A DNA stretch of 53,788 bases from Holdemanella biformis DSM 3989 (lineage in GTDB: Bacteria; Bacillota_I; Bacilli_A; Erysipelotrichales; Erysipelotrichaceae). The notes beneath the pieces are model-generated. The model was not told the origin of the DNA. It saw only the letters and a program-made list of their open reading frames with translations, and searched no databases. Made by a program: the position numbers and the translations under genes. Shown here piece by piece: positions 4,118 through 49,512 of this stretch (position 1 is its first letter; every line of letters begins with the position of its first letter). The stretch is from the NCBI RefSeq assembly GCF_000156655.1, contig NZ_DS996843.1:115895-169682 (forward strand), in the 5' to 3' direction.

Positions 4118-5485
4118 CTATACCGGTATAAACAAGACTTTATTATATCCACCACAAATCATGCCTAGTGTTGCACTTTCTGCATTGGATAAATCATACT
4201 CTTTAATCATGACTTTCTTACATTCTTTGGCATCTAAAATAGCCTGATATTCAACTTTTCCTCCACCAATCGTATCAATGACTCCATCTTTATGCACTAA
4301 CATCATGCTGCCAATTCCTCTAGGTGCTGAACCCTTTTTATCGATGATGATACATAAAGTTCCATGCATATTGGATTCTAATAATTCTTTCGAAACACTT
4401 GAACTAAACTTTGTATTTTTTATTTCAATAAGTTCAGCCAAAATACTAATCGATATCTCAGCCGGCGTCTGTGCCTTAATATCTAAACCAATTGGAGCGT
4501 GCACATTCGATAATTCTTCCTTCAAATATCCTTCTTCAATCAAAGCATCAAATGTCTTTTTTACTTTTCCTTTACTTCCAATCATACCCAAATATAAATG
4601 AGGCTTATGAATCGTCTTTTCTAGACAAAGACGATCATCCTTATGTCCTCTTGTTACGATCACATAACAAGCATTCTCTTCATCTGGTAATACAGAATCC
4701 ATTTGAGCATAATCGATACAATGAATTTCATCGGCCGTAGGAAAATGTTGAGAATTCGCAAATTCTTTACGATTATCAATCACAATCGTATATAGTTCTA
4801 ATATACTAGCCATTTTAGCCAAATACTGACTGACATGACCACAACCTAAAATCACTAGCTTAGGCTGCATATTAAACCATTCCTTTCGAATGAGATTCAC
4901 ATCGACATTTTCTTCTAATAAAGCCTTTACACAACGCGTATACAAATCACTAGCTCCATTCACATGAATTGTAACAGGTTTATTTAGTTTCTTTAAATAA
5001 GCACGTATTAAATCTTGCATAATTCTAGGTGTTACAAGTTCACTTGGATCTAAATTTGTAAGCTTGTAACGATGTACCACATCTTTTACTGGTTGATTTA
5101 ATCCATTTAGATTTGAAATCAACACAATCTCATCCGTATCTGAATCAATGACTGGTTCATTAGCGCTAGGAAACTTCAAAGGTAAATATTTAGAACCATC
5201 CGCCTCTATCAGTATCACATCCACCACTTGTTTTAATTGATTTAACAATTCTTCATCTAACGCCTCAATTTTCAAGTCACCACAACGATTTCCCGCATGA
5301 CAATATCCATATGCTTCAATTCTTTGCATGATTTCATCATAACCAGGATCGACTAATGTATCTTCTTCAATCAACATATGCGTCGTTGTACACATTAAAA
5401 CGGTCTTATTTAAAGAAACATATTTATCTTTTAACTCGTGGATATACGTTGTTTTTCCACCCGAACCAATTACACTAATAATCAT
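4118..5485 (-). CDS. YqeC-XdhC fusion, selenium-dependent molybdenum hydroxylase maturation
   Basis: 455 residues from the ATG at 5485, which overlaps the previous stop by 11 bases. Residues 1-~205 match YqeC, the selenium-dependent hydroxylase accessory protein, with a P-loop GSGGKTT at 7-13 and IEADGS near 93-98. Residues ~208-360 are an XdhC_C Rossmann domain (VILGCGHVSQYL, then TRGHKDD and MIGSKGK). Residues ~373-455 are the XdhC_CoxI domain (GTLCIIIDKKGSAPRG, IGGG, GMICGG). Classical XdhC has the CoxI domain first, so the order here is reversed. XdhC proteins bind and sulfurate Mo cofactor for xanthine dehydrogenase-type enzymes. Here the fused pair likely handles selenium insertion. It is the last gene of the Mo/Se operon. 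Confidence 0.88.
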   Translation of the reverse strand: MIISVIGSGGKTTYIHELKDKYVSLNKTVLMCTTTHMLIEEDTLVDPGYDEIMQRIEAYGYCHAGNRCGDLKIEALDEELLNQLKQVVDVILIEADGSKYLPLKFPSANEPVIDSDTDEIVLISNLNGLNQPVKDVVHRYKLTNLDPSELVTPRIMQDLIRAYLKKLNKPVTIHVNGASDLYTRCVKALLEENVDVNLIRKEWFNMQPKLVILGCGHVSQYLAKMASILELYTIVIDNRKEFANSQHFPTADEIHCIDYAQMDSVLPDEENACYVIVTRGHKDDRLCLEKTIHKPHLYLGMIGSKGKVKKTFDALIEEGYLKEELSNVHAPIGLDIKAQTPAEISISILAELIEIKNTKFSSSVSKELLESNMHGTLCIIIDKKGSAPRGIGSMMLVHKDGVIDTIGGGKVEYQAILDAKECKKVMIKEYDLSNAESATLGMICGGYNKVLFIPV

Positions 5486-7349: not shown

Positions 7350-7943
7350 TTATGGCTTGATAATTTTATCAGCCTTCTCCATTCTTTCTACAATATCATA
7401 CATATTTGTGACTGACCCCACCTGAAGTTCTTCTTTTAAATGGAAGAAATCTAAACAAGTTCCACAACTTACAATTTCTACTCCATTATCCGCTAAATAT
7501 TTTAAATCTTCTAAAGTTTCACTCTTTGTCGTTGTGATTTTTACACCCTCATTATAGAAAATCATTTCATCTGGCAAAACATCTTGTTTTGTCAAAGAGA
7601 AAATAAATGATTTCATTAAAATCGCACCTAAATCCGGATTGGAACCCATCACATTACTGGCGAACACTACAACCGTTTTAGGCTTAGCCAAGCTACAATC
7701 TGCATAAGTATATTCTACTTCAAAATCAGCTTCTTCATCACCCTTTGAAATTTCAACAATATAATCCTTACCCTCTTTTTTAGAATTTACCGTATAATTT
7801 TTTACTTTCGCAAACTTCGTTAAGTTTTCAACCGCAATCTCATTATCCACAATTGTTGAAACTACATTTTCTTCTTTTAAAGCTTCCTTTGTCTTTACAA
7901 CTGGAAGTGGACACTCCAATCCTCTACAATCTAAAGTTTTCAT
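7350..7943 (-). CDS. yedF: Sulfurtransferase-like selenium metabolism protein YedF
   Basis: 197 residues. Residues 1-~70 are a TusA/SirA domain with the CPxP motif at Cys11-Pro12 (LECPLPVVKTKE). The rest is a DsrE-like domain with FASNVMGSNPDLGAILMKSF and a C-terminal Cys pair, VSCGTCLDFF. This two-domain form is the version found in selenium-utilising genomes. It may carry persulfide or perselenide between the desulfurase and SelD or the hydroxylase. Six bases separate it from selD, and five from yqeB. Confidence 0.93.
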   Translation of the reverse strand: MKTLDCRGLECPLPVVKTKEALKEENVVSTIVDNEIAVENLTKFAKVKNYTVNSKKEGKDYIVEISKGDEEADFEVEYTYADCSLAKPKTVVVFASNVMGSNPDLGAILMKSFIFSLTKQDVLPDEMIFYNEGVKITTTKSETLEDLKYLADNGVEIVSCGTCLDFFHLKEELQVGSVTNMYDIVERMEKADKIIKP

Positions 7944-7949
7944 ATCTTA

Positions 7950-8966
7950 CTACCTCACATATACATTATATTCATTTTTATCAATGACTTCACCCACAAC
8001 ATACAATTCAAGATTATTTTCCTTAAAATCTATCTCTAGCTTTTCTAAATCCTCTTTAGATACACTAGCTAATAAGCCACCACTTGTTTGTGGATCAAAT
8101 AAAATTTCCTCTGTAAAAAAATCACAATCAAAATAAATCTTACCCTCTACACTTTTGCGATTGGTTTGTGCTGCCCCACTTAAATAAAACTCTTCGACAT
8201 ACTTTTGGCAATCATCAAAATATGGAATCGAATCTTTATAAATCAATGCACTATTTTTTCCGTCTAACATCTCATTTAAATGCACCAACAAGCCAAAGCC
8301 TGTTACATCCGTTAGAGCATGCACATCATATTTTTTTAAAATATCACACGCATACTTGTTTAATGTAGTCATACTTTTAAAAACTCTTTCCTGCATTGAT
8401 TTTGAACAATCATCCATACGCAACGCATTTAAAGTTAAACCAACACCTAAAGGCTTTGTCAAAACCAAAACATCTCCACTTTTTGTACCATTATTTTTCT
8501 TTACATCTATTGGATTCACTAAACCTGTTACACTCAATCCATATTTAATGGAATCATCACGAATAGAGTGTCCACCTACCAAAGCACACTTAGCTTCAAC
8601 TAACTTACTATTTCCGCCTTCAATGATTTTACCTAAAATATTCAAATCTTCATTTTCTGGAAAACACACAATATTTAAAGCTGTTTTAGGCGTACCATTC
8701 ATCGCATAAATATCACTGAGTGCATTTGTTGCTGCAATTTGACCATACAAATATGGATCTTCAACCATAGGTGGAAAGAAATCCAAAGTAGATACAAACG
8801 CATGATTTTCATCGATTTGATAAACAGCTGCATCATCTCTTGAATCAAAGCCAACCAAGACATGACTATCTTTATAAGAATCAATTTTTTCTAGAATATG
8901 ACTCAATTTTTTAGCGCCCAATTTGGCACTACATCCCCCACTCTTACAATATATTTTTTCATTCAT
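7950..8966 (-). CDS. selD: Selenide, water dikinase SelD
   Basis: 338 residues, an ATP-dependent enzyme making selenophosphate from selenide. The N-terminal glycine-rich motif GGCSAKLGAKKL carries the catalytic Cys12 and Lys15. It is the cysteine form, not selenocysteine. DSRDDAAVY, ATNALSDIYAMNGTP, VGGHS and the late FDPQTSGGLL are classic SelD motifs. No selA or selB lies in the window. Together with yqeB, yqeC and DUF3343 neighbours this marks the orphan SelD context described for selenium-dependent molybdenum hydroxylases. It overlaps the DUF3343 stop by one base (TAATG). Confidence 0.95.
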   Translation of the reverse strand: MNEKIYCKSGGCSAKLGAKKLSHILEKIDSYKDSHVLVGFDSRDDAAVYQIDENHAFVSTLDFFPPMVEDPYLYGQIAATNALSDIYAMNGTPKTALNIVCFPENEDLNILGKIIEGGNSKLVEAKCALVGGHSIRDDSIKYGLSVTGLVNPIDVKKNNGTKSGDVLVLTKPLGVGLTLNALRMDDCSKSMQERVFKSMTTLNKYACDILKKYDVHALTDVTGFGLLVHLNEMLDGKNSALIYKDSIPYFDDCQKYVEEFYLSGAAQTNRKSVEGKIYFDCDFFTEEILFDPQTSGGLLASVSKEDLEKLEIDFKENNLELYVVGEVIDKNEYNVYVR

Positions 8967-47865: not shown

Positions 47866-48313
47866 TTATTCTAAAAGAATGAATATAACGGTGTATTATC
47901 ATAAATATCCACCAAATTTCTAACAAGAATGATTTAATTATTGTCGAAAATGAAAAAATGCTTGAACTAAGGAAAACACTACTTTCGATAGAACAGCAAG
48001 ATAAAATCATCCTCACCGCATGCAATGAAGGTTCTTAACTGACAACATTATGCAAAAATCATACATTATTTGGATTCCTGTCTTTCTGTTGGAACAGTGA
48101 ACTCTACAATCAAGCACTACATTTAGCACATTAGCGATTGTTTTCTGTATCTCTACATGGAAGCATAGTCAATCCTTCAATTTTACATTTAATTTACTCT
48201 TATTCCACTGTTCATGACTTTGATCTGATTCATTTGGATATATTCAATCGTTTCATTTTGATTTTTATACTGTTTCTCAAATTCATGAACACACTTATTC
48301 TTATCGATTTTGT
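47866..48313. other. Degraded region, no intact gene
   Basis: About 450 AT-rich bases between the LytTR promoter and the TOPRIM remnant. A plus-strand frame around 47938-48038 would encode VENEKMLELRKTLLSIEQQD and then stops; it has coding-like character but no start site. The rest has stops in all frames. It is probably the eroded 5' part of the mobile-element gene that follows. Confidence 0.5.
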
Positions 48314-48709
48314 TTGTATTTAGATCATGCAGGAAGTAATAAAGCTTTCAGCTTTTCTTACACAAACACCAATAGGGATGAACTTCATGTATTTGAGGCA
48401 GCTATTGATCTTTTATCTTATATGACCATCTTAAAAGAAAATAATGAGAACTTTGTTACAAAGAACTATTTATCTTTAGCCGGTGCAAATAATCAAGCAA
48501 ATGGTGATATTCCTATATTTTTAAAATCATTTTTAAGCAGACATCCAAACATTAAAACAATTGTATTTCATCTAGACAATGATGAAGTTGGCACGAGTGC
48601 TGCTACTTATATGATGAATCGTTTAAAGAATAAATACCATTGCACAGATCAACATCCAACAAAATACAAAGATGTAAATGAAGAATTACAAGAAATGAAA
48701 AAAGTTTGA
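48314..48709 (+). pseudogene. C-terminal fragment of a DUF3991/TOPRIM-like mobile-element protein
   Basis: 131 residues without an ATG or ribosome site. HVFEAAIDLLSYMTIL, LSLAGANNQ and VFHLDNDEVGTSAA match the TOPRIM part of DUF3991/TOPRIM proteins carried by conjugative elements of Bacillota, including its acidic (E..DxD) positions. The N-terminal DUF3991 part and zinc ribbon are missing. It marks the remains of an integrated element next to the DUF3800 unit. Confidence 0.75.
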
Positions 48710-48734
48710 TTTTAAAGTCTTGTTTGGCTATAAT
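48706..48734 (+). promoter_or_regulatory. Promoter of the structured RNA / DUF3800 unit
   Basis: TTGATT (48706-48711), a 17-bp spacer and TATAAT (48729-48734). The -35 overlaps the stop of the TOPRIM remnant. Transcription would begin near 48741, just before the GC-rich RNA. Confidence 0.75.
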
Positions 48735-48740
48735 AAAGGT

Positions 48741-48821
48741 GTAAAAAGGCTTTTAAAAGCTAGGGCTGGTCGAAAGACCCGGGTCCACACAAAGGCGGGT
48801 AAGACACCCGCCATTTCTTTT
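48741..48821 (+). ncRNA. GC-rich structured RNA upstream of the DUF3800 gene
   Basis: An ~81-base island of high GC in AT-rich DNA. GCTTTTAAAAGC comes first, then hairpin GGTC-GAAA-GACC (48768-48779) with a GNRA loop and the self-complementary GACCCGGGTC (48776-48785). A perfect 7-bp hairpin GGCGGGT/ACCCGCC with AAGAC loop (48794-48812) is followed by ATTTCTTTT. The last hairpin looks like a terminator. Comparative genomics has described several DUF3800 RNA motifs located upstream of DUF3800 genes; this one probably belongs to that group, though which motif I cannot say. Confidence 0.72.
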
Positions 48822-48840
48822 GGATAGTTGAGGGTGCGTA

Positions 48841-49512
48841 ATGGAATTAAGTGTTTTCGTCGATGAATCTGGAGATTTTGGGGAATATGATTATCACGCT
48901 CCTTACTATATTATTTCCTTAGTTTTTCACAACCAAAGTAATGATATTCAATTTGATTTATCACATTTTAATGATGAATTAGCTTATTTAAACTTATCTA
49001 ATCACTGTGTCCATGCAGGTCCAATTATTCGTTCAGAAGAAGAATATAAAGGAATGTCACTAGACGAAAGAAGAAAGATATTAAAAAAATTAATGGCATT
49101 TATCAGACATATTGATATTTCATACAAAACAATATATATCGAAAAGAAGCATATTAAGGATTCTATCGAAGCCACGGGTAAATTAAGCAAACAATTATCC
49201 TCGCTAATTCGAGAAAATATGGATTTATTTTGTAGTTTCGATGTTGTGAAAATATATTATGATAATGGGCAAGTGGAAGTAACCCGTGTTCTCTCTTCTG
49301 TTTTTAATGCTTTATTAGAAAACGTAGAATTTAGAAAAGTAATTCCATCACAATATCGATTGTTTCAAGTAGCTGATTTAATTTGTACATTAAAGCTAAC
49401 TGAATTAAAATTAGAAAATCATACTCTTTCAAAATCAGAAAAAGCTTTTTTTGAAGATGAAAGAACTTTAAAGAAGAATTATTTAAAACCCATAAAAAAG
49501 AAAGAATTGTAA
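48841..49512 (+). CDS. DUF3800 domain protein
   Basis: 223 residues, GAGGGTG before the ATG. The N-terminus LSVFVDESGDFG is the DUF3800 hallmark (Asp-Glu pair on the first strand), with YYDNG mid-protein and FQVADLICTL near the C-terminus holding a further conserved Asp. The acidic layout resembles an RNase H-like fold, but no activity has been established. The family is frequent on mobile elements. Directly preceded by the structured RNA. Confidence 0.9.
   Translation: MELSVFVDESGDFGEYDYHAPYYIISLVFHNQSNDIQFDLSHFNDELAYLNLSNHCVHAGPIIRSEEEYKGMSLDERRKILKKLMAFIRHIDISYKTIYIEKKHIKDSIEATGKLSKQLSSLIRENMDLFCSFDVVKIYYDNGQVEVTRVLSSVFNALLENVEFRKVIPSQYRLFQVADLICTLKLTELKLENHTLSKSEKAFFEDERTLKKNYLKPIKKKEL

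Follow-up and report, generated by a model that had tools for sequence, protein, structure and literature searches.

We propose that a short structured RNA and the DUF3800 gene directly downstream of it in Holdemanella biformis DSM 3989 constitute an RNA-inhibited nuclease, i.e., a type III-like toxin-antitoxin or abortive-infection pair, and that phages use mimics of the RNA as counter-defence, a reading in which our confidence is evenly balanced. More tentatively, the pair may represent an anti-phage system with a new class of protein, and mimics of its RNA may be broadly carried by large gut and rumen phages in their tRNA arrays, either on their own, as fusions with drum RNA or in the form of cow-rumen-3. 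The pairing of RNA and DUF3800 gene is already known and catalogued as Rfam family RF02975, and DUF3800-associated RNAs have so far been listed without a function. New here are the functional inference, the solo copies of the RNA in phages and mobile elements, the link to cow-rumen-3 and a further hairpin (H3) supported by covariation. The phage-encoded solo copies are the most informative of the data on function and point to a trans-acting role in phage-host conflict; the initial annotation of this DNA lacked these copies, the RNase HII-like fold of the protein and the identical pairing across relatives. If the proposal is true, an RNase HII-fold effector would join the RNA-inhibited defence systems, the orphan family cow-rumen-3 would be explained, and phage tRNA arrays would be a store of anti-defence RNAs in which more mimics of defence RNAs are worth seeking.

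A promoter, a structured RNA and a DUF3800 gene in tandem

The window (the whole 53,788-nt stretch of contig NZ_DS996843.1 that was analysed) contains the following features:

48706..48734, + strand: sigma-70-type promoter TTGATT-N17-TATAAT, for the RNA (sequence; comparative enrichment)
48741..48822, + strand: predicted discrete RNA of ~80 nt (folding; predicted ends)
48748..48761, + strand: H1, optional 5' hairpin, variable in sequence, its structure often kept in relatives
48762..48809, + strand: Rfam DUF3800-XI match, spanning core hairpin H2 and the 5' part of H3
48763-48786, + strand: H2, core hairpin with a GAAA loop, a 2-nt bulge on the 3' side and invariant GGGCU..GGUCC
48794..48822, + strand: H3, GGCGGGU-AAGAC-ACCCGCC (hairpin itself 48794-48812) with a T-rich tail, intrinsic-terminator-like
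48841..49512, + strand: DUF3800 gene, 223 aa, predicted RNase HII-like fold (Pfam; AlphaFold2; Foldseek)

The promoter described in the initial annotation is present, with TTGATT (48706) and TATAAT (ending at 48734) separated by 17 nt and matching the consensus at 10 of 12 positions, and best matches of at least 10/12 are enriched 5' of the RNA in homologous units (52% of 79 units, vs 4.5% of shuffled sequences). The RNA had been described there as DUF3800-type, with a covariance-model search as the suggested check, and cmscan assigned it to class XI (RF02975, 48762-48809) with 61.6 bits against a cut-off of 37.8. This was the sole Rfam match in the window (E 2.7e-11 over the whole window), and it sits 5' of the DUF3800 ORF at 48841-49512. 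Folding of 48741-48822 gave -29.8 kcal/mol (z -2.98) and three hairpins, H1, H2 and H3, the last followed by ATTTCTTTT, a T-rich tail; the GNRA-tetraloop hairpin and the terminator-like final hairpin noted earlier can be recognized in H2, with its GAAA loop, and in H3. The 5' end of the predicted RNA was placed ~7 nt past the -10 box and its 3' end at the T-rich tail. The ORF, which had likewise been called as DUF3800 with its own ribosome site, matches Pfam PF12686 (DUF3800) with E 7.5e-9 and 36.9 bits against a cut-off of 21, and GAGGG at 48830-48834, as read from the sequence, resembles a ribosome site. There is a single copy in the genome.

The RNA fold is maintained by compensatory changes

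The test for compensatory changes suggested for homologous loci was carried out on 68 relatives (67 distinct), in which 98.1% of cells were paired and 61 cells were compensated, vs 11.6 in shuffles. Two-sided changes occurred at 10 of 17 pairs (68 units), with six of those pairs lying in H3, and the invariant GGGCU/GGUCC stem of H2 contains two G-U pairs. Compared with the Rfam entry, which describes 48 nt with one paired hairpin, the RNA of the window adds the 7-bp H3, by covariation, and the optional H1. On its own, H1 of the window is weak (5 bp); a stem of at least 6 bp directly 5' of H2 was found in 65% of relatives vs 18% of shuffles; its sequence took 33 different forms, and several of the loops were GNRA or UUCG. 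Because this stem is frequent in relatives yet variable in sequence, H1 is an optional structural element. Units of Fibrobacter and Treponema lack it, and their -10 box lies 6-10 nt from H2.

In one clade (L074, L077, L080, L082, L091, L092, L094 and L103), another hairpin, with an unconserved loop, lies 3' of an H3-like GGGGAGGUUCCCC hairpin and serves as terminator. Since these loci have H3 plus a separate terminator, H3 is kept for more than termination. L074 additionally holds a second, divergent XI-like RNA (4690-4748, strand -, 34.9 bits) that converges on the DUF3800 gene from downstream.

RNA and gene are invariably paired and move as a cassette

Relatives of the DUF3800 gene (56-74% protein identity) were collected by protein similarity, without reference to the RNA, and the RNA was located 5' on the same strand in 80/80 loci (~200 nt upstream in L045; L063 is cut by the contig end), with no intact DUF3800 gene lacking the RNA among the 80. 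Hosts belong to Bacillota (61), Spirochaetota (9), Fibrobacterota (6), Bacteroidota (1) and Chloroflexota (1), with two unassigned, and the protein tree is discordant with host phylum. RNA type tracks the protein tree, and RNA position 27 changes only twice. A test of RNA-protein co-evolution was set aside, as RNA types switch too rarely on the protein tree to yield independent pairs; the H3-loop labels assigned for it were unreliable and are left out of account.

DNA homology in most locus pairs extends from the promoter (-100 to -180) to within a few bases of the stop codon, with differing surroundings; longer shared flanks occur in a few closely related pairs only. Since homology mostly ends at the promoter and stop codon while the flanks differ, promoter, RNA and gene move as one ~850-bp cassette. 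A survey of neighbours returned integrases, recombinases, HTH genes and a few Abi/SoFic matches among mostly ordinary genes, and no fixed partner gene of the cassette. The abrupt end of homology on the right, at the stop codon, was considered as a mark of a transposon end and rejected, with no terminal repeats seen. L104 and L106, which are 99.97% identical over 3.2 kb, split exactly inside the DUF3800 stop codon, for which insertion, recombination or an assembly effect are candidates. In an empty-site comparison within the genus, one genome (G213) matched only short pieces of the left flank and no insertion boundary was readable, and the plasmid collection gave no match. The earlier view of the pair as mobile-element-borne is right for the cassette in general, which occurs in five phyla with differing flanks, and less so for this window, where the traces are a broken Toprim gene and a repeat on the left. 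The former, a Toprim_2 ORF (48314-48709) that lacks a proper start, is probably what is left of a mobile-element primase, and contig C39 carries a stretch 70% identical to this region. The repeat (48010-48246, left of the cassette) has a second copy with 88% identity at C37:175499-175748, with shorter ones on C40 and at the C37 terminus, and is probably part of a mobile element.

The DUF3800 protein is predicted to resemble RNase HII

An RNase H-type fold for DUF3800 has already been stated (PMC10910872, PMC12669027). The AlphaFold2 model of the window protein (pLDDT 92.5, pTM 0.90) gave RNase HII as the best Foldseek matches (E 1.7e-5). VIA likewise placed RNase HII (Z 8.4) ahead of Piwi/Argonaute and integrase RNase H domains. 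Four acidic residues are conserved among the DUF3800 proteins (D8 in 74/75, E9 in 73/75, D141 in 75/75 and D179 in 75/75). On the basis of the model, we are confident that the predicted fold is RNase HII-like; RNase HII itself shares only ~10-15% identity with the protein, which has extra helices and a paired RNA gene. The DESG motif of DUF3800 presumably resembles the DEAG motif of RNase HII, and this correspondence, together with the RNase HII likeness, is our own reading of the fold. Searches with the window protein returned no PADLOC family at E<=1 and nothing useful from NCBIfam, PHROGs or PDB sequences.

The RNA occurs without the gene in bacteria

Across 316 genomes of the order, the RNA was found in 33, the XI-type protein in 17 and both in 14. 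Nine of the 39 RNA places precede an intact full-length gene and several precede broken remnants; some bacterial RNAs without DUF3800 stand before unrelated genes. Five genomes of a second family without XI-type protein contain solo RNAs (60-76 bits) with promoter and terminator, mostly in mobile or restriction-rich surroundings. Overall, bacterial solo copies have a promoter and a terminator and lie mostly away from tRNA arrays. The excess of gene decay over RNA decay is compatible with a toxin being lost ahead of its antitoxin; this is supportive only, and the same bias may come from target size alone (672 nt vs ~60 nt).

Two further arrangements were observed beside bacterial copies. Directly upstream of a solo DUF3800-XI RNA, L144 contains a type III toxin-antitoxin-like locus (7494-8220, strand -) composed of repeats ending GGTAAAATAAAAAATG and then a 159-aa ORF, which is also found in L145 and L146 and has no Pfam or PADLOC match. 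In L002, L023 and L026, a solo or decaying XI RNA lies just 5' of a Phd/ParE-like toxin-antitoxin pair (judged by eye).

The RNA occurs without the gene on viral contigs

IMG/VR was scanned with a hairpin pattern in which the apical stem and H3 were left free. The hairpin was found on 33 viral contigs of up to 193 kb, representing ~26 distinct RNAs as several contigs share one sequence; L185, L215 and L225 were taken as chance pattern matches. DUF3800 was absent from 33/33 both when the fetched stretches were searched by tblastn and when the complete records, many of which are fragments, were searched with PF12686; the PF12686 search detected 3/3 positive-control records. These solo phage copies are additional to what Rfam records for RF02975. 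On 22/33 contigs the stretch that was fetched contains tRNA genes, which in most cases form an array surrounding the RNA, and in L156 and L192 H3 or the tail touches a tRNA. L160, L162, L165 and L188 have confirmed terminase or portal genes, terminase by direct scan of single ORFs; PF03237 was a poor phage marker here (2/22) and phrog_2 matches control genomes too.

Phage copies comprise the whole of H2 and usually H3. The invariance of GGGCTG/GGTCCA among them is in part a product of the search patterns, in which the apical pairs 8-15 and 9-14 were free to vary. Both of these pairs are standard in 16/16 non-chance viral copies in UA, CG, AU and other combinations, and an H3-like hairpin lies at the same offset in most of them. 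Since the free apical pairs and the H3 offset are preserved, the phage copies are under selection for the same structure. Cultured phages gave no convincing match to the RNA, only ~22-nt matches to the terminator-like half, and one fragmentary match to the DUF3800 protein.

A model of an RNA-inhibited nuclease and its alternatives

Type III toxin-antitoxin systems share with the present locus an RNA gene 5' of the protein gene and an intrinsic terminator between the two, but usually have tandem repeats where the window and nearly all units have a single H2-H3 motif. In ToxIN, the RNA lies 5' of the toxin with a terminator between, and phage PhiTE encodes an RNA mimic, pseudo-ToxI (PMC3475682). 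ToxI differs, however, in being a tandem-repeat pseudoknot and ToxN in belonging to another protein family; the best fold matches of DUF3800 are RNase HII, and that the ToxN/AbiQ endoribonuclease fold was not listed excludes nothing. AbiF and RCd22 RNA (RF03085) of Clostridioides difficile are arranged as promoter, structured ncRNA, terminator and toxin gene, and direct binding by the RNA neutralises AbiF both in cis and in trans (PMC12373285). Here too there are differences, since AbiF is Abi_2-family and Cas13-related and RCd22 RNA has two copies of another motif. The layout of promoter, RNA, terminator and ORF, as in AbiF/RCd22 and ToxIN, was counted for an antitoxin role of the RNA. Weighing against the toxin-antitoxin reading are the single motif, the absence of a PADLOC match for the window protein and the mostly ordinary genes around the cassettes.

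In the proposed mechanism, the 5' promoter would produce an abundant RNA of ~50-80 nt ending at H3, and slight read-through beyond H3 would supply the DUF3800 mRNA. The protein, modeled as an RNase HII-fold nuclease, would be bound in trans by H2 and H3 and thereby held inactive; phage infection would halt the supply of RNA, and the freed nuclease would damage nucleic acids. Large phages and some mobile elements would encode the RNA alone, in phages often inside a tRNA array, and with this mimic would hold the nuclease in its inhibited state. For a phage that has the RNA but not the protein, the simplest trans use would be binding of the host DUF3800. The initial annotation had suggested a defence or toxin-antitoxin-like pair, and at the sequence level the conserved RNA-gene pairing and the RNA-only copies on phages are in keeping with that logic.

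Inhibition is likelier than activation because phage copies usually hold the whole of H2 and H3, and because a phage would gain nothing from an activating cofactor. The RNA could instead be the activating cofactor or scaffold of an OMEGA/Cas-like RNA-guided or RNA-dependent nuclease, in which case the phage copies would act as decoys by forming useless complexes. Racr RNA anti-CRISPRs, which are solitary repeat units and phage decoys of an active RNP (PMC10651486), offer a precedent, and an RNase H-fold protein with an obligate neighbouring RNA would suit this role, as would the DUF3800 proteins that accompany some Cas12a2 and VI-F loci (PMC10910872, PMC12669027). We nevertheless consider it unlikely, as the aligned units show no variable segment of constant length to serve as a guide, the variable H1 forms a hairpin of its own that units of Fibrobacter and Treponema lack, and phage copies with whole H2 and H3 would be expected to activate. 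In the upstream and downstream alignments inspected, no guide-like segment or conserved ends of the OMEGA/TnpB kind were seen.

A mainly cis-acting leader, bound by DUF3800 or another factor and regulating its own gene via attenuation at H3, would account for the position of the RNA directly 5' of the ORF with a terminator hairpin between, and an attenuator was among the options of the initial annotation. As a main function it is not favoured and seems to us quite improbable, given that copies of the RNA lacking the gene exist in bacteria, ahead of unrelated genes and within the tRNA arrays of phages, and that H3 is distinct from the terminator in one clade.

cow-rumen-3, drum and other structured RNAs of phages

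The candidate mimics of the proposed inhibitor RNA include parts of larger phage RNAs. cow-rumen-3 (RF03083), which scores 96-99 bits on L166 and L167, has a DUF3800-XI-type hairpin at its 3' end, and the cow-rumen-3-type hairpin is present on five viral contigs. The Rfam structure line of this 3' hairpin is almost that of DUF3800-XI, and the two share GGGCUG...CCGGGUCCACC, whereas cow-rumen-3 as a whole is longer (141 positions), has one extra loop base and has no DUF3800 gene on its record. The RNA of the window is not itself a member of RF03083 (14.3 bits vs a cut-off of 86.7). ROOL RNAs lie near the hairpin on three contigs. Such composites, with the hairpin at the 3' end of cow-rumen-3 or right after drum RNA (four contigs) and ROOL RNAs nearby, could also suggest a general RNA module of phages and mobile elements (for tRNA-array stability, processing or as a ribosome element) that has a host-factor partner and was captured or is sensed by DUF3800 cassettes, but this is the least probable of the explanations, as the hairpin is found under a promoter of its own in 80/80 DUF3800 loci, and solo copies in bacteria, which come with promoter and terminator, mostly lie off tRNA arrays.

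Drum RNA (RF02958) is joined directly to a DUF3800-XI hairpin at L157:11384-11548, L161:485-649, L165:3610-3774 and L187:2980-3134, and may be another decoy or carrier RNA. More orphan structured RNAs were found in the same phage tRNA arrays, namely cow-rumen-4 and ROOL (L167:5788-5855, and L187, L190 and L191). The arrays also contain tRNA-Pyl(CTA) (L167:5318-5410 and L224:3515-3607), which, together with terminase matches containing in-frame TAG (G660 and G669), suggests TAG-recoded phages.
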